This document shows positions 18,771 through 27,054 of a stretch of DNA of 64,000 nt, piece after piece. The DNA comes from Burkholderia sp. BCC0322 (GTDB lineage Bacteria; Pseudomonadota; Gammaproteobacteria; Burkholderiales; Burkholderiaceae), in assembly GCF_902833045.1 (NCBI RefSeq), contig NZ_CADFDU010000020.1, positions 1 through 64,000 on the forward strand, given 5' to 3'. The notes beneath the pieces are model-generated. The model did no database searches and had not been told where the DNA came from. It saw only the letters and a program-made list of their open reading frames with translations. The translations under genes and the position numbers were made by a program. Every line of letters begins with the position of its first letter. Positions within the stretch are counted from its first letter, which is position 1.

Positions 18771-18860
18771 TTGCCCTGACGCTTCCGTTCATGTGTCGCG
18801 GCCAGGCAGCAGTACGAAGCCGGCGCGCCTAGCAGCGCGAAGCCGCCGCAAACGCATCGG

Positions 18861-18895
18861 GCCCGCATCGACCGCATTGTCGATGCGGGCTTTTT
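18861..18895 (+). terminator. Terminator after ybiT
   Basis: GCCCGCATCGAC (18861-18872), loop CGCATT, GTCGATGCGGGC (18879-18890), then TTTTT to 18895. A perfect 12-bp stem with a U tract, which separates ybiT from the cluster that starts at 19015. Confidence 0.92.
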
Positions 18896-19014
18896 CATTT
18901 CCATGCCGGTGCAGCACGGCAGTCTTCCGCATTCTCGTTTCCTTCCCTCGATCGACTTCGGGTAAATTACGCTCCGAATACTTATCTCAATTCCGACCCG
19001 GAGCCGCCCCCTCG

Positions 19015-19764
19015 ATGCAGGACCATCCTCTCCCGCTCGACCTGTCCGGCCTTGCGCAAAGCCTGTACGCGCAGGGCACCGAGGAAGGCATCCTGTCGCG
19101 CCTGATGGAGCGGATCGCGCCGACCCACCGCTTCTGCGTCGATATCGGTGCAAGCGACGGCCTGCGCAACAGCAACACCGCGCGGTTGCTTCGCGAACAG
19201 GATTGGTCCGGCGTGCTGGTGGAAGGCAGCGCATACCGTTTCGGCAAGCTGGCGGCCCACTACGCGGGCGCGGATCGCGTCCGCTTGCACCATGACCGCG
19301 TTCAGCCCGACACGATCGACACGTTGCTCGCCGATGCGAACACGCCAACCGACTTCGACCTGCTGTCGATCGACATCGACGGCAACGACTACTGGGTCTG
19401 GCGCGGCCTGCAGGCATTCCAGCCGCGCATCGTCGTGATCGAATACAACCCGTACTACACACCGCCCGAGCGTTGGGTCATGTGCTTCAACCCGGACCAC
19501 GAATGGGACGGTTCGACGTACTACGGCGCGAGCCTCGAATCGCTCGTCCATCTCGGCAGGCAGAAGGGCTATGAACTCGTCTGCTGCGACGACATGGGCA
19601 ACAACGCGTTCTTCGTGCGGCAGGACCTGTATCCGCTGCTCGGCATCGCGAACAACGCTTCGTCGGTGCTGTTCCGCCCGGCGATGTACAAGGTGCGCTA
19701 TGTCGGGCACAACACGTTCCTGAGCGGCCATCCGTATCGATACGGGCCGGCCGAGCACATCTGA
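19015..19764 (+). CDS. Methyltransferase-like protein (FkbM-like fold), first gene of the 19-24 kb cluster
   Basis: 249 residues. The SAM-binding-like motif VDIGASDG is at 42-49 and an acidic LSIDIDGNDYWVW segment at about 117-129. Both are typical of class I or FkbM-type methyltransferases found in glycan and natural-product loci. The C-terminal third (FNPDHEWDGSTYYGASLESLVHLGR, FLSGHPYRYG) is unlike common housekeeping methyltransferases. The next gene begins on the base after its stop, so it is translationally coupled to it. The acceptor is unknown. An open frame extends to 18793, but the ATG at 19015 aligns with the domain start. Confidence 0.7.
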   Translation: MQDHPLPLDLSGLAQSLYAQGTEEGILSRLMERIAPTHRFCVDIGASDGLRNSNTARLLREQDWSGVLVEGSAYRFGKLAAHYAGADRVRLHHDRVQPDTIDTLLADANTPTDFDLLSIDIDGNDYWVWRGLQAFQPRIVVIEYNPYYTPPERWVMCFNPDHEWDGSTYYGASLESLVHLGRQKGYELVCCDDMGNNAFFVRQDLYPLLGIANNASSVLFRPAMYKVRYVGHNTFLSGHPYRYGPAEHI

Positions 19765-20757
19765 ATGGGCCCGCTCGCCGCGACCTTCGACGAGATCCGC
19801 GAGGCCTATGCATTGGGCCGAAGCGGGCAGCCGCGCCAGGTCGGCGAACGCGTGTGGCGCCTGCCGACCGATGACGGCGGCGTAGCGGTCAAGCTCTACG
19901 CGTCCGAACACCATGCGCGTGCGGCCAAGGAAGCGGCCGTCCTTGCGCACTTCGAGACGCACGGCGATGCGCGTTTCCATGTGCAGGCGCTGAAACGCAC
20001 GGCAGCCGGCGCACCGCTCTGGACGGGGTCGACTGCCCACGCGATGCTGACGCGTTGGGAAACCGGGCAGTGCAGAACCTACGACACGTTTTCACCGGCC
20101 GAATGGGATGCGCTCGGCGAGAGTCTGGCGGCGTTGCATCTGAGCCTCGAGCAGCTTCATCTACCGCAGGTCGACACGATCCGCGCACGGCTGACCGCGA
20201 TCGACGCGGACGCGGTGCGCAGCAGCCTGCTCGACGCGCTGGATCGCGGCCGCTCGAACGACGGCGCGGAGAACCTGCGCCGCTACGTCGATCTCGCGCT
20301 GCGCCTGCTCGAGCGCTACTATCCGGGCAGCATCGACGCGTTTCCCGCCGGCGATCCGCAATGCCCGATCCACAACGACTACAACCAGTTCAACTATCTG
20401 TTCACCGGCACCCTGCCACCGCTCATTCTCGACTGGGAAGCGTCGATCGGCGCACCGCGCGAATACGAACTGGTGCGTTGCCTGAACCATCTGCCGCTGG
20501 AGGCGCCGCATCTGGCGGCAGCGTTCGTGCTGGCATACCGGCGGACCCGGCCGGTGGATCCCGCACGTATCGCATGGGCGGTCGATGCCGCGTGTCTGCA
20601 GCACGCGCTCAAGCTCTGGATCGTGCAAGGCTGGCTCGACGATCCGTCGCGCTTTGCATCGCATCTGAACGGCGCGGTGACGATGGCGTCCGCGATGGTG
20701 GATGCGCGCGACCATCTGGTCGATTTCTTTTCCCGTTGTGTGGAAACAGGACGCTGA
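19765..20757 (+). CDS. APH-type phosphotransferase
   Basis: 330 residues with the aminoglycoside phosphotransferase/choline kinase fold. The catalytic loop HNDYNQFN is at 203-210 (D205 as base, N210 for Mg) and the metal aspartate is D223 in LILDWE. The N-lobe lysine is in GGVAVKLYASE. It probably phosphorylates a hydroxyl of a small molecule. It abuts the methyltransferase-like gene with no spacing and is followed 1 bp later by the radical SAM start. Resistance, activation and biosynthetic roles are all possible. Confidence 0.75.
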   Translation: MGPLAATFDEIREAYALGRSGQPRQVGERVWRLPTDDGGVAVKLYASEHHARAAKEAAVLAHFETHGDARFHVQALKRTAAGAPLWTGSTAHAMLTRWETGQCRTYDTFSPAEWDALGESLAALHLSLEQLHLPQVDTIRARLTAIDADAVRSSLLDALDRGRSNDGAENLRRYVDLALRLLERYYPGSIDAFPAGDPQCPIHNDYNQFNYLFTGTLPPLILDWEASIGAPREYELVRCLNHLPLEAPHLAAAFVLAYRRTRPVDPARIAWAVDAACLQHALKLWIVQGWLDDPSRFASHLNGAVTMASAMVDARDHLVDFFSRCVETGR

Positions 20758-20758
20758 A

Positions 20759-21637
20759 GTGAATGCGAATCTGAACCGGATGTCGAATCCGACGCCGCCG
20801 GCCGAGCGGCAGCATGTGTTTCCGCCGCCGCTGGATCGCGATTACCGCGTCGAAGACGGGCGCGTGCTGACGCGCTCGCTGGAAGCGCATGTCGTCGATC
20901 ACTGCAACCTGACCTGCGCGGAATGCTGCTCGCTGTCGCCGTTGCTGCCCGAGTGGTACGCGCGCCCCGAATCGCTCGAGGCCGATCTGCGCAAGGCGGC
21001 GAAGGTGCTGCGCCCGCGCCTGTTCAAGCTGGTCGGCGGCGAGCCGCTGCTGCATCCGGCGCTCGTCGAACTTGTCCAGCGGGTGCGTGCCACGGGCATC
21101 GCGCCGGTGATCTCCGTCACGACGAACGGCCTGAAGCTCGGCGAGATGACGGACGCGTTCTGGCAGGCGGTGGATGCGCTGACGATCTCGCGCTATCCGA
21201 AGCCGGCGCTGTCGCCCGACCTGGTCGCGCACATCGAGCGCCAGGCCGCGCGCTTCGACGTGCGCCTGAACTGGAAGGTGCAGGATGTGTTCACGACGAT
21301 GAACCGCGCGGAGCCCGGCACCGATCGCGACGCCGCGCAGCGCCTTTATCACGATTGCTGGATACGCGAGCGCTGCCACATGATTCGCGACGGCATGTTC
21401 TACACATGCACGCGTCCGGCGCATTTCCATACGCTCTACAAGGGCGAGAAGGATTTTCAAGCCGACGGCCTGCCGCTGCGCGACGACGCCGGCATGCTCG
21501 ACGCGATGCTCGCCTATCTGCAACGCGAGGCGCCGCTCGAAGCGTGCCTGCATTGCCAGGGCGGCAGCGCGCCGGTGGCGCCGCACCGCATCCTCAAACG
21601 CATTGAAGTACACGCCTTGAAGGCTCGTTATCCATGA
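20759..21637 (+). CDS. Radical SAM protein
   Basis: 292 residues. GTG 20759 is placed behind AGGA (20748-20751); an ATG at 20780 is the alternative. The 4Fe-4S motif CNLTCAEC has cysteines at 49, 53 and 56, with the GGEPLL segment about 35 residues later. The C-terminal third has more cysteines (DCWIRERCHMIRDGMFYTC and CLHCQGG), which could bind an auxiliary cluster as in SPASM or twitch domains. The reaction is unknown. It sits inside a coupled run with a kinase, an amide ligase and a glycosyltransferase, which argues for a biosynthetic modification. Confidence 0.75.
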   Translation: MNANLNRMSNPTPPAERQHVFPPPLDRDYRVEDGRVLTRSLEAHVVDHCNLTCAECCSLSPLLPEWYARPESLEADLRKAAKVLRPRLFKLVGGEPLLHPALVELVQRVRATGIAPVISVTTNGLKLGEMTDAFWQAVDALTISRYPKPALSPDLVAHIERQAARFDVRLNWKVQDVFTTMNRAEPGTDRDAAQRLYHDCWIRERCHMIRDGMFYTCTRPAHFHTLYKGEKDFQADGLPLRDDAGMLDAMLAYLQREAPLEACLHCQGGSAPVAPHRILKRIEVHALKARYP

Positions 21638-22695
21638 TCGTCGGCACGCGCGACCTGTTCGGCTTCGACCGGCTTCACTACCATCCACGCAGCGGTGCGA
21701 CGGCGTCCGGCATCCGGGCCGTCCTGCACGCAGCGGGGCAACCGGCCGGCGAGCCGGACGTGGCGGCCATCGCCGGCTACCTGAGCGGCGATCGGCCGAT
21801 CGGCCGCACCGTGCTGCGCGACGTGCGCGCGGTGCCGCCCGGCCATGCGCTGGTCCGCTCACCGCAAGGGCTGACCGTGCAGCCGGCGCCCGAGCGGCCG
21901 CGGCAAGCCGATCTGGAAACCGTGCTGCGCGCATCGCTGCAGCGCGCGCTCGACAGCGGCAAGCGTGCCGCGCTGGCGTTGAGCGGCGGGCTCGATTCGG
22001 CGCTGCTGCTCGCGTTGCTGCGCGAACTCGGTGCGCAGCGGCACGTGACGTCCTACGTGCTCGTGACCGACATGCCGGACTATTGCGAACGCGATGCCGC
22101 ACTCGAACTTGCCGAGCAGATGCAGGCGAACGTGAAGATCGTGCGCGCGAACGAGGCCGATTTCGTCGCGGCGCTGCCGAGAACGACGCATGCGGTCGAG
22201 GAGCCGATGTTCAACCTGCATCCGGTCGCGAAGCTGTTGCTCGCCGAGGCGATGGCCGCGGACGGCGTCGAGGTGGCCATTACCGGCGACGGCGCGGACC
22301 AGGTGCTGCGTCGCGACCGGTCGGCCAACTACCTGCCGCTGTGCCATGCGCTGTTCGACGCGGCGTCGGTCGAGCTGCATCCGCCGTTCGTCGACGATGC
22401 CGTCGTCGCGCATTTGACGAGCATCGCGCCCGATCCGGACAAGCAATGCCTGCGCGATCTCGGTGCGCGCCTGAATTTGCCGGACCGGCTCGTGCATGGC
22501 CCCAAGCGTGGGCGGCTCGCCCCGGCGATGGACCTCGCGGCGCTGCTCGATCGCGACCGCACGCACGCGCTGGCCGACAAACTGGGTCTGGCCGCACCTG
22601 CGCTGCAGACGGACAACGAACGCGTGCTGTGGACGACGCTGTCGCTGATCCTCGATCATTTCGACCCACGCGATGCCGTGCATCGCCCAACCTGA
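21634..22695 (+). CDS. Asparagine-synthase-like amide ligase lacking the glutaminase cysteine
   Basis: 353 residues, overlapping the preceding stop by 4 bp (ATGA). The ATP-pyrophosphatase motif SGGLDS is at 117-122 and GDGAD at 218-222, as in asparagine synthetase B, beta-lactam synthetase and lasso-peptide cyclases. The N-terminal ~95 residues keep a remnant of the glutaminase fold (RDLFGFDRLHYHP, VPPGHALV) but lack the Cys2 nucleophile, and the domain is much shorter than in AsnB. It should therefore use ammonia or an amine substrate rather than glutamine. The product is an adenylated carboxylate turned into an amide; the substrate is unknown. Confidence 0.75.
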   Translation: MIVGTRDLFGFDRLHYHPRSGATASGIRAVLHAAGQPAGEPDVAAIAGYLSGDRPIGRTVLRDVRAVPPGHALVRSPQGLTVQPAPERPRQADLETVLRASLQRALDSGKRAALALSGGLDSALLLALLRELGAQRHVTSYVLVTDMPDYCERDAALELAEQMQANVKIVRANEADFVAALPRTTHAVEEPMFNLHPVAKLLLAEAMAADGVEVAITGDGADQVLRRDRSANYLPLCHALFDAASVELHPPFVDDAVVAHLTSIAPDPDKQCLRDLGARLNLPDRLVHGPKRGRLAPAMDLAALLDRDRTHALADKLGLAAPALQTDNERVLWTTLSLILDHFDPRDAVHRPT

Positions 22696-22702
22696 GTCGT
22701 TC

Positions 22703-23911
22703 ATGAAACGCATCCTGTTCTGCGTGGTGCCCGAGAAAGGGCACGTCAATCCGTGCATCGGCCCGGCCCAGCATCTGCGCGCCGCCGGTTGCGACGTCGC
22801 GTTCTACGCGCCGGCCGATATCAGCGCCCAGCTCGACGGCGCGGGCGGCTTCGCGTTCGTCGGGCCGCGCGAGACGCCCGAGCGCCACGACCTGTCGCGC
22901 GGCGCGAGCTTTGCCGCGAACATTCGCGACGCGGACTGGCTGCGGCACTGGATCCGCACGCTGCTGATCGATCTTGCACCCGCGCAGGTAGACGGCATTC
23001 GCGCGGTGCTGCGCGACTGGCAGCCCGACGTGGTCGTGATCGACCCGCTGCTCTATGCGGCGGCGATCGCCGCGGAGCTGGAAGGGCTGCCGTGGGTTTC
23101 GATGTCGAATTCGCTGAATCCGGTGCTGCCGGACGATCTCGATTCGGAACTGCTGCGCACGGTGCGATGGCTCGCGCCGGAGCGCACGCGGCTGTTCGCG
23201 CGCTACGGGCTCGATGCGCGTTTTCGCGGTTGCGACGTCCTGTCGCCGCACCTGACGCTCGCATTCACGACCGACGCGCTGGTCGGTGCGCCGCCGCCCG
23301 GCGTCGAGCTGGTCGGCCCGGCAATGCCGTCCGGCCCGCGCGGCGATGAGGCGCCGTTTCCGTGGGAGCGCCTCGATGCCGGTCGTCCGCTCGTCTACAT
23401 GTCGCTCGGCAGCCAGCTCTACTACCATCCCGACGTGTTTGCGAAGGTCATCGACGCGACGCGCGCGACGTCGGCGCAACTGGTGCTGTCGGTGGGCGAG
23501 CTGGTCGATTCGGATCTGCTGCCGGCCGGCGACGAGCGCGTGGTCGCGGTGCGTTACGTGCCGCAACTGGCGCTGCTGCGTCGCACGCACGCGTTCGTCA
23601 GTCATGGCGGCGCGAATTCGGTGATGGAGTCGCTTGCCTGCGGCGTGCCGATGCTGCTGTCGCCGTTCTGCAACGACCAGTTCCATTCGGCGCACTTCGT
23701 CGAGCGGGCCGGTGCGGGGTGCGTGCTGGATCTGCAGCAGGCCGGCGTGGCGGACATCACCGACGCGCTCGAACGGCTGTTGCGGCCCGGATCGTTGCGC
23801 GAGCAGGCGGCGCGGGTCCGCGCGAGCTATGCTGCGCGCGACGGTTCGGCCGAGGCGGCGCGCCTGATCAGCGCACTCGCTTCAGGAAACCGCCGGGCGA
23901 CAGCGTCATGA
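22703..23911 (+). CDS. GT1-family glycosyltransferase (UGT/MGT-like)
   Basis: 402 residues starting at ATG 22703, 7 bp after the amide-ligase gene. The N-terminus ILFCVVPEKGHVNPCIGPAQHL is the acceptor half, and the nucleotide-sugar motif SHGGANSVMESLACGVPML has H301 in the donor half. This is the macrolide/flavonoid-type GT-B fold that transfers sugars to small hydrophobic molecules or lipids. Its end overlaps the convergent CmcI-like gene by 44 bp. Its place at the end of the coupled run suggests it finishes the cluster product. Confidence 0.8.
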   Translation: MKRILFCVVPEKGHVNPCIGPAQHLRAAGCDVAFYAPADISAQLDGAGGFAFVGPRETPERHDLSRGASFAANIRDADWLRHWIRTLLIDLAPAQVDGIRAVLRDWQPDVVVIDPLLYAAAIAAELEGLPWVSMSNSLNPVLPDDLDSELLRTVRWLAPERTRLFARYGLDARFRGCDVLSPHLTLAFTTDALVGAPPPGVELVGPAMPSGPRGDEAPFPWERLDAGRPLVYMSLGSQLYYHPDVFAKVIDATRATSAQLVLSVGELVDSDLLPAGDERVVAVRYVPQLALLRRTHAFVSHGGANSVMESLACGVPMLLSPFCNDQFHSAHFVERAGAGCVLDLQQAGVADITDALERLLRPGSLREQAARVRASYAARDGSAEAARLISALASGNRRATAS

Positions 23912-24557
23912 GGACGCGGTCCTCGATGTCGTAGTCGACCTCGAACCGGTCGTCGCGGGCGAGGAATTCATGCGCGGCGGTGGCCGGGTTATTGCCTTTG
24001 CCGTACGGCTTGCCGTCGAACATCGACGCGGGCAGGTACTCCATGATGGTGTCCATCACGATCGCATAGCTGCCGGGCGTCACGAGCGGCGCATAGCATT
24101 CGAGTTCGCGCAGCACGTGCGCGTGCGTATGCGTGAGATCGAGGATCGCCATCACGCGCGCGCCGTCGCCGATCTGTGCGCGCACCGACGCGAGCGTGTC
24201 GGCCGCGCACGATTCGCCTTCGAGCAGTGTCATGCGATGGGCGAGCCGGTGCGATTGCAGGCGCTGCCTGACTTCGTCGCGCAGGCGCGGTTCGATCGCG
24301 ACGACGCGGCCGCTGCCGCCCGCCAGTTCCAGCATCGACGCGGAGAACACGACGCCGCCGCCCGCCGCGATGCCGGTCTGCACGATGCAGTCGGGACGCG
24401 CGCGCCAGATCAGTTCCTGGAGCGCGAGCATGTCGCCGGGCAGATGGAAGAAGCGCTCGCCGAGCCAGCGCGTCTGGAACAGATGGTCGAATTCGGCGGC
24501 GCGCGTCAGCCAATCGATATTGATGTCCCGCATGCGGGCCGAGGGACGCTCTGACAT
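23868..24557 (-). CDS. CmcI-like methyltransferase/hydroxylase family protein
   Basis: 229 residues from ATG 24557 (alternative ATG 24533). The CmcI/rhamnosyl O-methyltransferase family is suggested by HLPGDMLALQELIWRARPDCIVQTGIAAGGG (about 38-68), VVAIEPRLRDEVR, the DLTHTHAHVLRELECYAPLVTPGSYAIVMDT segment and the FLARDDRFEVDYDIEDRVLMTLSPGGFLKR end. Family members O-methylate sugars or act in cephalosporin tailoring. It runs against the glycosyltransferase gene and overlaps it by 44 bp. It starts 25 bp from the divergent kinase gene. The substrate is unknown. Confidence 0.75.
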   Translation of the reverse strand: MSERPSARMRDINIDWLTRAAEFDHLFQTRWLGERFFHLPGDMLALQELIWRARPDCIVQTGIAAGGGVVFSASMLELAGGSGRVVAIEPRLRDEVRQRLQSHRLAHRMTLLEGESCAADTLASVRAQIGDGARVMAILDLTHTHAHVLRELECYAPLVTPGSYAIVMDTIMEYLPASMFDGKPYGKGNNPATAAHEFLARDDRFEVDYDIEDRVLMTLSPGGFLKRVR

Positions 24558-24582
24558 GGTCAATGCAACGAGTAGGAGTGAC

Positions 24583-25548
24583 GTGAAAACGCTGGAACCG
24601 TGGCTTCACCGGTGCTGGAACATCGGGCCGGCGCACCTGCAGGCGCTGGCGTCGGGCCATACTAACAAAACGTATCTCGTCGAGTGTGATGCGAGGCGCG
24701 CGGTGCTGCGCGTGTCGTGGTCCGGCAAGGCGGCCGAACAGGTGCATCGCGAGGCGGCGATACTCGGCCACCTCGGCCACCCGCGCACGGCGCCGAGGCT
24801 GCCCGTGCTGCCGCGCCTGCGGCCGACCGTGGATGGGCAATCCGGTGTGCAACTGCCCGACGGGCGCTGGCTGCATTTGTTCGAGCATATCGACGGCAGC
24901 CCCGGCCTGCCGGACGATGCGGAGGCGGGCGCGATCGATGCGATGCGTGCGCTTGCGCACCTGCATGCGGCGATGGCGGCGATACCCACGACCGAATCGG
25001 CGCCGCTGGCCTGGCTGTCGGCACGCCACGCACGCGTAGCGGCGCGTGCCGCTCCGTCGTTGCCGGGTGACTTGAGCGGCCACTACGAGACGATGATTCG
25101 CCGGATCGGTGCACATCTCGACGCTGCCGCGCGCTGGCTGACAGGGGCGGCGCACTGGCTGCACGGCGATTATCACGCGGGCAACTTGCTGTACGTCGGG
25201 CACGCGGTGAACGGCGTGCTCGATTTCGACGATGTCGGGCAGGGCGCGCAGTGGCTCGAAGCGGCCTTTGCGCTGTTCGCGCTGTCGCGCGATGCGGGCA
25301 GGGACGATCGCTTCGTATTCGATGCGCAGCGCTGGGAGGCCGGCCTGCAAGCCTATGCCGCGACGCGTCCCGATGCCGCACCGGACTGGATGCATGAGCG
25401 CCGCGATGCGCTGATGGCCCTGTTTTGCGTGGACCAGACGCTGATCCATCTCGAAGCCGCGCAGCGCGGCCTGTGGACGCCGGGGCCCGGCATCGGGTTT
25501 CTCGGCGGCTGGTGGCAGTTGCTGGATGGTGCGACGCCCGGACGCTAG
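24583..25548 (+). CDS. Second APH-type phosphotransferase
   Basis: 321 residues from GTG 24583 behind AGGAG (24574-24578); an ATG at 24556 is an in-frame alternative. The catalytic loop HGDYHAGN is at 194-201 (D196, N201) and the metal motif DFDD starts at D214. The N-lobe has ASGHTNKTYLVECDARRAVLRVSW. It resembles homoserine-kinase-II or Fub/SrkA-like kinases more than true aminoglycoside enzymes. It is divergent from the CmcI-like gene with almost no room for two promoters. The substrate is unknown. Confidence 0.75.
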   Translation: MKTLEPWLHRCWNIGPAHLQALASGHTNKTYLVECDARRAVLRVSWSGKAAEQVHREAAILGHLGHPRTAPRLPVLPRLRPTVDGQSGVQLPDGRWLHLFEHIDGSPGLPDDAEAGAIDAMRALAHLHAAMAAIPTTESAPLAWLSARHARVAARAAPSLPGDLSGHYETMIRRIGAHLDAAARWLTGAAHWLHGDYHAGNLLYVGHAVNGVLDFDDVGQGAQWLEAAFALFALSRDAGRDDRFVFDAQRWEAGLQAYAATRPDAAPDWMHERRDALMALFCVDQTLIHLEAAQRGLWTPGPGIGFLGGWWQLLDGATPGR

Positions 25549-25560
25549 CCGGCCGCTGCG

Positions 25561-26136
25561 TCAACGCGACCGATTCAGGAACAGGCGCACCGCTTCGACC
25601 GTGTTGGGCCGCGCCTCGCCGTGCCGCGATCCGTCGTGCAGGCAAAACAGCACGTCGCGCTGCCGTGCCGCGCTGGCGTCGACATGCGCGCACATCGCGT
25701 CGAATAGCGCCTGCGGCGACGGCGCGGGTCGCTGCCAGTCGTCCAGTATCGCGGTCCAGCCCGTGTGTTCGCGCTGCAGCCGCGTCAGCACGCCGGCGCG
25801 GTTGTCCTGCGGCACCAGTCCATAAGGCAGGCGTAGCGGGATCGTGTCCGGAGCCGGAACACCGGCGCGGCGATAGGCTTCGCGGATCAGCGTATCAGTC
25901 GTCTCGATCTCGTCGATCAGCGCGTCGTCCGCCAGCACGCCGGGCTTCGCGTGCGAATGGGTGTGATTGCCGAGTGGATGGCCGTCACTCGCCATTCTCG
26001 CGGCGACGTCGAGCGCGCCTGCGAGATTCTGGCCGAGGAGGAAGAAGGTCGCGTGGCAGGAGGCGGCGCGCAGGACGTCGAGCAAGGGGAGCGTCGAAGG
26101 GCCGGGGCCGTCGTCGAAACTGAGGCGAATGGACAT
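25561..26136 (-). CDS. Polysaccharide deacetylase (NodB homology domain)
   Basis: 191 residues from ATG 26136. It opens directly with the NodB motif SFDDGPGPST (D8 as base, D9 as metal ligand), then H58 and H62 in NHTHSH complete the metal site. Later motifs are RLPYG (arginine) and FCLHDG. There is no signal peptide, which is unusual for a cell-wall or capsule deacetylase, so a cytosolic substrate is suggested. It converges with the second kinase gene 12 bp away and may belong to the 19-26 kb cluster. Confidence 0.8.
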   Translation of the reverse strand: MSIRLSFDDGPGPSTLPLLDVLRAASCHATFFLLGQNLAGALDVAARMASDGHPLGNHTHSHAKPGVLADDALIDEIETTDTLIREAYRRAGVPAPDTIPLRLPYGLVPQDNRAGVLTRLQREHTGWTAILDDWQRPAPSPQALFDAMCAHVDASAARQRDVLFCLHDGSRHGEARPNTVEAVRLFLNRSR

Positions 26137-26221
26137 CGCGGGTGGGAGCGCCTTTCGAGGTGTACCGGAGGAACAATAGCGCAAGTCGTGGCGAGCGGCG
26201 GCTCGCGCATCCGTTGGCCTG

Positions 26222-26785
26222 CTAGTGGAGCGGCTCGACCGCCAGCGGACAGGTGCCGATCCGGCGCAATTGCGTGCCGGTCCACTCATAGAAGAACCGG
26301 GCGGCCTTCGTGTTGCTGTCGTCGCAATCGTCGTTGAAGCAGCCCGCGACGATCAGCAGCCTGCTGCCGGGCCGGAAATCGACGCGCTCCTCGTCGTTGC
26401 CCATCACGCCCGCAATGGCCTGCACGCCGGGCATCGTATACGTCGCGCCCGTGTATTTGTCGACGATCGCGAAATTCCGGCAATCCGTTCCGCAACCCCA
26501 GATCGCGACCCGGTAGTGGCCGGCAAAATTGGCCGGTTGCGTGAATTCGTCGCGAATGACGGTGCGGTAGAGGCGGGCTTCCTTGCTGGTCAGGCGTGGC
26601 GCCGTGACCGGCTTGCGCGGCGCGCTTGCCGACGGTGCCGGATAGCGGTCGAACGAAGGCGACGGGCATGCGGCGGCGGATGTGGCCGCCGCCGCGCGAG
26701 CGGCGCCTGCGCCGCAAAGCAGCGCGGCCGATGCGCCGGCGATCAGCAGAAATCGATGGGCAGGCGTCACGCGAGCATCCTTCAT
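26222..26785 (-). CDS. Exported hypothetical protein, 187 aa
   Basis: A signal peptide covers about 1-32 (FLLIAGASAALLCGAGAARA). The mature part has cysteine pairs IWGCGTDCRNF and VAGCFNDDCDD, which may form disulfides in the periplasm, and the segment RLYRTVIRDEFTQPANFAGHYRVAIWGCG. Similar proteins are found as conserved hypotheticals in proteobacteria. It ends 85 bp before the deacetylase start on the same strand. I assign no function. Confidence 0.75.
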   Translation of the reverse strand: MKDARVTPAHRFLLIAGASAALLCGAGAARAAAATSAAACPSPSFDRYPAPSASAPRKPVTAPRLTSKEARLYRTVIRDEFTQPANFAGHYRVAIWGCGTDCRNFAIVDKYTGATYTMPGVQAIAGVMGNDEERVDFRPGSRLLIVAGCFNDDCDDSNTKAARFFYEWTGTQLRRIGTCPLAVEPLH

Positions 26786-27054
26786 GTTCGGGATGGGGAT
26801 CGGGCCGGAGGATCCGAACGGCCGGCGACGACGATTCTATGACGCTTCGCGCGCCGGCGATCCGGAGCGGCGATCGCGATTGGGTGCAATCCCCGGCCTT
26901 CCGCGCACGGCCCGCCGTCAAGCTTTGTCAAATTGCGGCGATCTCACGATACCTGACGTTTCAGCGCGCATTCGAAGGCTGTATTGCACGGGTTGATTGA
27001 GTATCCTTGGATTCGATTCGCGGTACTCATGCAGTCACAACCGGGAGGCTTCAC

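Follow-up and report, generated by a model that had tools for sequence, protein, structure and literature searches.

A cassette of eight genes at positions 19015-26136 was identified downstream of ybiT in a 64,000-nucleotide stretch of Burkholderia sp. BCC0322 (contig NZ_CADFDU010000020.1, positions 1 to 64,000), which is referred to as the window. The reading that we cautiously favour is that these genes constitute one horizontally moving cassette, whose enzymes form a cytosolic pathway with a small amino-sugar glycoside as its product. The product would carry amide, methyl, and phosphate groups, and we infer the substrates, the order of the steps, the product, and its use. A small amino-sugar glycoside is proposed because the unit encodes soluble families only and no exporter, its deacetylase is signal-less, its family 1 glycosyltransferase (GT1) is of the UGT/MGT type, and its radical S-adenosylmethionine (SAM) enzyme is of a type encountered in aminoglycoside biosynthesis.

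Burkholderia are rich producers of natural products, and radical SAM sugar epimerisation is known from actinobacterial aminoglycosides. No paper describing this gene set was found among the openly licensed papers searched; the cassette occurs in 31 of the 65 Burkholderia genomes examined, yet no matching pathway was found in those papers.

Gene organisation and conservation of the unit

The original prediction, made from this stretch, had described a compact run of five genes (19015-23911), next to which CmcI-like, kinase, and NodB-type genes were placed as adjacent. The run is present, with spacings of 0 bp, 1 bp, a 4-bp overlap, and 7 bp. These values depend on the start codons chosen in that prediction, which are favoured by alignments with relatives. 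In-frame starts further upstream exist for FkbM (18793), the radical SAM gene (20702), and GT1 (22673); the radical SAM start taken is GTG at 20759, with 20702 or 20780 as alternatives, and the CmcI-like start taken is ATG at 24557, with TTG at 24563 as alternative. The three remaining genes do lie next to the run, but they are part of the same unit (Table 1), which is thereby larger than had been supposed. The CmcI-like gene on the minus strand overlaps the 3' end of GT1 by 44 bp, its start codon overlaps that of the second kinase gene on the plus strand, and the largest intergenic gap within the eight genes is 12 bp. The family names given earlier are all supported by Pfam, with Radical_SAM scoring 27.4 bits, slightly below its gathering score of 29.5.

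Table 1. Features of the eight-gene cassette and its upstream flank in the window (aa, amino acids; AsnS, asparagine synthetase)
Feature	Position	Strand	Evidence
FkbM-family O-methyltransferase, 249 aa	19015-19764	+	PF05050, 36.6 bits (cut-off 22.7)
APH-fold small-molecule kinase 1 (APH1), 330 aa	19765-20757	+	PF01636, 47.8 bits
Twitch radical SAM enzyme, predicted sugar epimerase, 292 aa	20759-21637	+	SpeY 7wzv, E 1.4e-41
Predicted AsnS-type ATP-dependent amide synthetase (AsnS-like), 353 aa	21634-22695	+	Pfam Asn_synthase; PP-loop SGGLDS
GT1 (UGT/MGT-type) soluble glycosyltransferase, 402 aa	22703-23911	+	PF00201 (UDPGT), 72.4 bits
CmcI / rhamnosyl O-methyltransferase-like protein, 229 aa	23868-24557	-	PF04989 (RMNT_CmcI), 208 bits
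APH-fold small-molecule kinase 2 (APH2), 330 aa	24556-25548	+	PF01636, 79.9 bits
NodB/CE4-type N-deacetylase, 191 aa	25561-26136	-	PF01522 (Polysacc_deac_1), 72.9 bits
Mobile unit, extent where located elsewhere in other genomes	18996-26153		Homology limits, three genomes
Terminator-like hairpin 3' of ybiT (flank, outside the unit)	18859-18892	+	14-pair stem

The genes of the cassette are neither scattered nor independent in their occurrence, in agreement with the compact unit that had been predicted. Identical order and orientation of all eight genes were found in 25 of 25 complete loci examined. Of these, 22 belong to the 23 loci retrieved from a named genome collection, and the other 3 derive from further genomes. 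The 23rd locus of the collection ends at a contig end and retains the last five genes, the first of which is partial. Among the 65 Burkholderia genomes, strong matches to the AsnS-like gene were found in 31 (split over two contigs in one), the NodB-type and CmcI-like genes are present in the same 31, and the other 34 contain no strong match to the AsnS-like gene. Similarly, the radical SAM and FkbM genes share the same 34 of 398 genomes in a Burkholderiaceae sample, in which FkbM has distant matches only (30-33% identity) in 4 further genomes. In wider samples, only the centre genome was recovered, both for the radical SAM gene in the phylum (1 of 398; E value 1e-15) and for the AsnS-like gene in the order (1 of 399; E value 1e-20). 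The named hosts are Burkholderia, Paraburkholderia, Trinickia, and Bordetella, and most of the Burkholderia host species presumably belong to the cepacia complex.

All eight genes are under purifying selection, as the ratio of nonsynonymous to synonymous substitution rates (dN/dS) is 0.06-0.32 across the cassette (three relatives), next to 0.03-0.06 for ybiT (two relatives). Moreover, the residues checked across 26 sequences are invariant except Arg292 of the AsnS-like protein and Thr144 of the CmcI-like protein. The eight genes are thus more than chance open reading frames (ORFs), given the low dN/dS and the invariant residues. Trees of 26 rows for each of the eight genes recovered the Bordetella group in 8 of 8 cases, and all but the CmcI tree (7 of 8) separate the main Burkholderia group from the remaining rows.

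Mobility of the cassette

The guanine plus cytosine content of the eight genes (0.64-0.70) is similar to that of the neighbourhood, as had been noted, and transfer is not revealed by base composition. To that extent the earlier statement that recent transfer is not indicated stands; it does not stand for the distribution, since in some genomes the cassette is located at a different site, and no strong match exists in 34 of the 65 Burkholderia genomes, from which we conclude that it has been moved or lost among genomes. Eleven stretches downstream of ybiT were compared, 10 from cassette-free genomes and 1 from a genome with the cassette elsewhere, and none of the eight genes was found in any of them. 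One genome displays an empty site, where homology to the window halts at 18776, just past ybiT, and restarts at 26223 after 98 bp; in three other stretches homology restarts at 26915, and in the remaining ones later or never within the stretch. Conversely, in three genomes with the cassette elsewhere, the stretches compared are homologous to window positions 17000-38000 only over 18996-26153, 19009-26125, and 19003-26138. By these limits, no more than 19 bp of the unit precede the first start codon, and its end lies within 17 bp of the last gene.

In one of these three genomes, a Burkholderia (G016; L107 versus L106), ybiT is 93% identical to that of the window, and the cassette proteins are 64-84% identical and encoded on a different contig from ybiT. 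Judged by these sequences, a separate transfer, i.e., a second acquisition, is suggested as the best explanation for this diverged off-site cassette. In plasmid records, relatives were found for FkbM (11), CmcI (57), GT1 (213), and the radical SAM enzyme (2), and the plasmid collection contained no matches to the AsnS-like protein, APH1, or APH2. One plasmid region was inspected for each of FkbM, CmcI, and GT1, and none of them contains an annotated radical SAM or Asn-synthase gene.

The radical SAM enzyme as a relative of SpeY

Comparison of a nine-row profile of the radical SAM enzyme with solved structures yielded 7wzv, 7wzx, and 7x0b over nearly the whole chain (E value 1.4e-41; next match 0.0021), which are entitled 'The structure of a Twitch Radical SAM Dehydrogenase SpeY'. 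By this profile, SpeY of the spectinomycin system is the only strong solved relative. The two proteins share the CxxxCxxC motif (Cys49, Cys53, and Cys56, kept in 26 of 26 sequences) and four cysteines, Cys200, Cys217, Cys263, and Cys266, which are equally invariant and would bind the auxiliary (twitch) cluster. They differ in that identity is 27-33% in structure alignments and that Cys206, invariant in 26 of 26 sequences, aligns with a serine in SpeY. Cys206 also aligns with Cys183 of a protein of Streptomyces sp. SAT1, which we take to be the donor position of HygY, and it is a candidate hydrogen donor. Because an invariant cysteine where SpeY has a serine is expected in epimerases, the cassette enzyme is predicted to be an epimerase and not a dehydrogenase. 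The original reading of the gene set had missed this aminoglycoside-type relationship, as well as the truncation of the AsnS-like protein described below.

The SAT1 protein is the best plasmid-record relative of the radical SAM enzyme (38% identity over 91% of the query). Its locus (L044:5251-16059), which lies terminally on a linear plasmid of 840 kb, contains near the radical SAM gene a gene that is 94.9% identical to APH(7'')-Ia, together with genes for a phytanoyl-CoA dioxygenase, a SIS-domain protein, aminotransferases, and glycosyltransferases, and is presumably of the hygromycin B type with a HygY-like radical SAM protein. Radical SAM, APH-type kinase, and glycosyltransferase genes are common to this locus and the cassette, whereas its aminotransferase, dehydrogenase, dioxygenase, and ABC transporter genes are absent from the cassette. 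Unlike the SpeY and HygY systems, the cassette resides in Burkholderiaceae and is without aminocyclitol genes.

A defence function was considered and rejected: PADLOC gave no hits apart from two of viperin type, both weak (40.5 and 29 bits) and both to the radical SAM core, and in the fold comparison SpeY ranks above the viperins.

The AsnS-like protein without a complete glutaminase domain

In the AsnS-like protein, the glutaminase domain is missing its first part. The match to the family model begins at residue 3, corresponding to model position 137, such that about 134 N-terminal model residues are absent, and this part includes the catalytic end of the domain. Structural alignment of the predicted model with AsnB and beta-lactam synthetase starts at about residue 57-82, and the model aligns to AsnB from residue 193; the ORF opens with the first start codon that follows a stop. 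Accordingly, an N-terminal glutaminase domain with a nucleophilic cysteine was found neither by family model nor by predicted structure or ORF start, while the PP-loop SGGLDS and the AsnB-like fold of a synthetase domain are both present. Besides this truncation, the motif GDGADQ sets the protein apart from AsnB and beta-lactam synthetase.

In Trinickia soli, the cassette is directly followed by an ORF (L038:14667-16487) whose beginning (MCGLAG...) resembles that of an asparagine synthetase with its glutaminase domain complete.

Kinases, glycosyltransferase, methyltransferases, and deacetylase

The catalytic residues of both kinases are invariant in 26 of 26 sequences, and in APH1 comprise the HxDxxxxN motif and a further aspartate (His203, Asp205, Asn210, and Asp223). 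No solved structure similar to APH1 was found at an E value of 0.001; APH2 has weak matches to 9o56, 'Aminoglycoside phosphotransferase' (E value 5e-5), and to the glucosamine kinase 6hwj (E value 1.1e-4). APH2 has the lowest identity to Bordetella among the eight proteins, the match to it covers no more than 64% of its length in Bordetella genomosp. 13 (L042:12905-14213), one of the 22 complete loci, and an in-frame stop was flagged in its gene in an extended stretch (L036:12920-14305).

The GT1 reaches 137 bits with TIGR01426 (cut-off 260) and matches structure 8h5d (E value 1.1e-35), and its histidine, aspartate, and C-terminal motif are kept in 26 of 26 sequences. FkbM carries the SAM motif DIGASDG and is 78-98% identical in a nine-row alignment. 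The CmcI-like protein resembles CmcI and the mycobacterial rhamnosyl O-methyltransferase in its RMNT_CmcI match, and scores 65.3 bits with NF045824, the rhamnosyl O-methyltransferase equivalog, below the cut-off of 400; no solved structure passed an E value of 1e-5.

CE4 enzymes are marked by a catalytic aspartate, an Asp-His-His metal site, and RxPY, DxW, and LxH motifs. All of these are found in the NodB-type protein, in which Asp8, Asp9, His58, His62, Arg102, Pro104, Tyr105, Asp133, Trp134, and His167 are invariant in 26 of 26 sequences. As in NodB and the peptidoglycan N-acetylglucosamine deacetylases, the motif residues are kept and PgdA is matched (2c1g; E value 2.2e-20). The cassette enzyme differs from them in remaining below the NodB equivalog cut-off (TIGR04243, 70 bits versus 240) and in being apparently cytosolic: by inspection, it begins straight with the catalytic domain and has no signal peptide.

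Proposed pathway

In the proposed pathway, the GT1 would move an N-acetylhexosamine or hexose from a nucleotide sugar onto a small acceptor, and the NodB-type enzyme would take off an N-acetyl group within the cell, thereby freeing an amine. At one carbinol carbon of the sugar, the radical SAM enzyme would invert the configuration: the carbinol hydrogen would be taken by the 5'-deoxyadenosyl radical, and Cys206 would return one from the opposite face, as described for NeoN. HygY uses the same mechanism of hydrogen return. The AsnS-like enzyme, without a working glutaminase, would adenylate a carboxylate and couple it to an amine (or to free ammonia) as an amide, and the FkbM and CmcI-like enzymes would O-methylate hydroxyls. 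Of the two APH kinases, one probably has the acceptor or an intermediate as its substrate, and the other may add phosphate to the product as a means of self-protection. The glycosylated, amide-containing small molecule that had been put forward before is consistent with these enzyme families.

Since no aminocyclitol-forming gene (cyclase, aminotransferase, dehydrogenase) was found by Pfam among the eight proteins, the cassette does not qualify as an aminoglycoside cluster in the usual sense, although the chemistry may work alike. More speculatively, and with considerable doubt, it could represent a minimal proteobacterial route to an aminoglycoside-like natural product without aminocyclitol genes, in which eight soluble enzymes take an N-acetylhexosaminide through deacetylation, HygY-type epimerisation, amidation by a near stand-alone AsnS domain, methylation, and phosphorylation, encoded on a 7.1-kb block passed between genera. 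If the favoured reading is right, it would bring radical SAM sugar epimerisation into Proteobacteria, with eight soluble enzymes in a set small enough for in vitro rebuilding. The title of the HygY paper, as it stands in the reference list of PMC10991966, states that mutation of one cysteine reveals a dehydrogenase activity of this epimerase. By analogy with what that title reports, changing Cys206 is predicted to convert the cassette epimerase into a dehydrogenase.

Several observations weigh against the amino-sugar glycoside pathway or against the unity of the cassette. By Pfam, no nucleotide-sugar, aminocyclitol, or acyl-donor family is present among the eight proteins, and the building blocks must therefore come from elsewhere in the cell. 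Moreover, neither Pfam analysis of the eight proteins nor the genome comparisons revealed an exporter or regulator travelling with the unit, which would be odd for a secreted antibiotic. APH1, APH2, and GT1 reach no NCBIfam cut-off, and homoserine kinase is the top NCBIfam match for both kinases. The CmcI-like protein has Gln62, Leu143, Thr144 (24 of 26 sequences), and Met170 at the expected metal positions, which are unusual residues in comparison with CmcI and the rhamnosyl O-methyltransferase, as CmcI enzymes have other, mostly acidic (or polar) residues there; it may thus have an altered metal site or activity and may not be a methyltransferase. In the GDGADQ motif of the AsnS-like protein, Gln223 is found in 26 of 26 sequences at a position where the AsnS family has glutamate. 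For the radical SAM enzyme, modelling gave a poor structure (mean predicted local distance difference test score 46.4), so that the relationship to SpeY rests on sequence, and the model is too poor for an active-site argument. Finally, 19 of the 28 gene pairs show 1-4 conflicting splits at a support of at least 0.9, which may reflect exchange within the unit or tree error.

Alternative explanations

The same enzymes might produce a compound that is retained in the cell, e.g., a low-molecular-weight thiol or a compatible solute. Synthesis of mycothiol and bacillithiol uses a glycosyltransferase, a deacetylase, and a ligase, and the GT1, deacetylase, and amide ligase of the cassette would give the same formal order of reactions; the absence of an exporter and regulator from the cassette also fits such a role. 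However, a radical SAM epimerase and two methyltransferases exceed the needs of these pathways, and the patchy presence among Burkholderia speaks against a core role, so that a retained metabolite appears unlikely.

Somewhat less probable still is the decoration of a surface glycan, in which the enzymes would make or modify an unusual sugar of lipopolysaccharide, capsule, or exopolysaccharide, an option that had been raised in the original prediction. FkbM, CmcI-like, and CE4 deacetylase genes are commonly located near polysaccharide genes, and among the distant relatives an FkbM gene occurs on a plasmid with mannose-1-phosphate guanylyltransferase and a CmcI gene near neuB. Nevertheless, Pfam, with no membrane-segment prediction made, revealed no flippase, polymerase, (ABC) exporter, or nucleotide-sugar family among the eight proteins. 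In addition, in the stretches compared the three genomes with the cassette elsewhere share the cassette and no flank with window positions 17000-38000, the GT1 is of the soluble UGT/MGT type, and the deacetylase was seen by inspection to be without a signal peptide, all of which argues against the surface sugar.

Inactivation of incoming antibiotics by the kinases, GT1, and methyltransferases of a drug-inactivation island is highly improbable: models of macrolide glycosyltransferases do match the GT1, at 137 and 95 bits, and aminoglycoside kinase models match APH2 very weakly (17 bits), but these matches all remain below the NCBIfam cut-offs, both kinases match homoserine kinase best, and a conserved eight-gene order with a radical SAM enzyme and an amide synthetase is not known from such islands. 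Just as little weight is given to maturation of a ribosomally synthesised and post-translationally modified peptide by the radical SAM and AsnS-like enzymes. Lasso-peptide cyclases are AsnS-like and weakly matched here (25.6 bits versus a cut-off of 525), but with gaps of at most 12 bp a separate precursor gene would have to be a small ORF that overlaps the others or lie at a distance, and the radical SAM enzyme is nearest to SpeY and not to peptide maturases.

The ybiT flank

A terminator had been proposed at 18861-18895, after ybiT, and a 14-pair stem is indeed found there, although the scan yielded 6 terminator-like sites versus 8.5 expected by chance and this hairpin is distinguished only by its stem length. 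The 3' end of ybiT is a single copy in the window. In two other stretches, L021 (1971-2141 and 7024-7266) and L100 (1420-1590 and 6601-6728), it brackets inserts of roughly 5 kb, which by inspection hold a resolvase-like (L021) or integrase-like (L100) ORF. With its 3' end on either side of the inserts in both stretches, ybiT seems to serve other elements as a site of integration.

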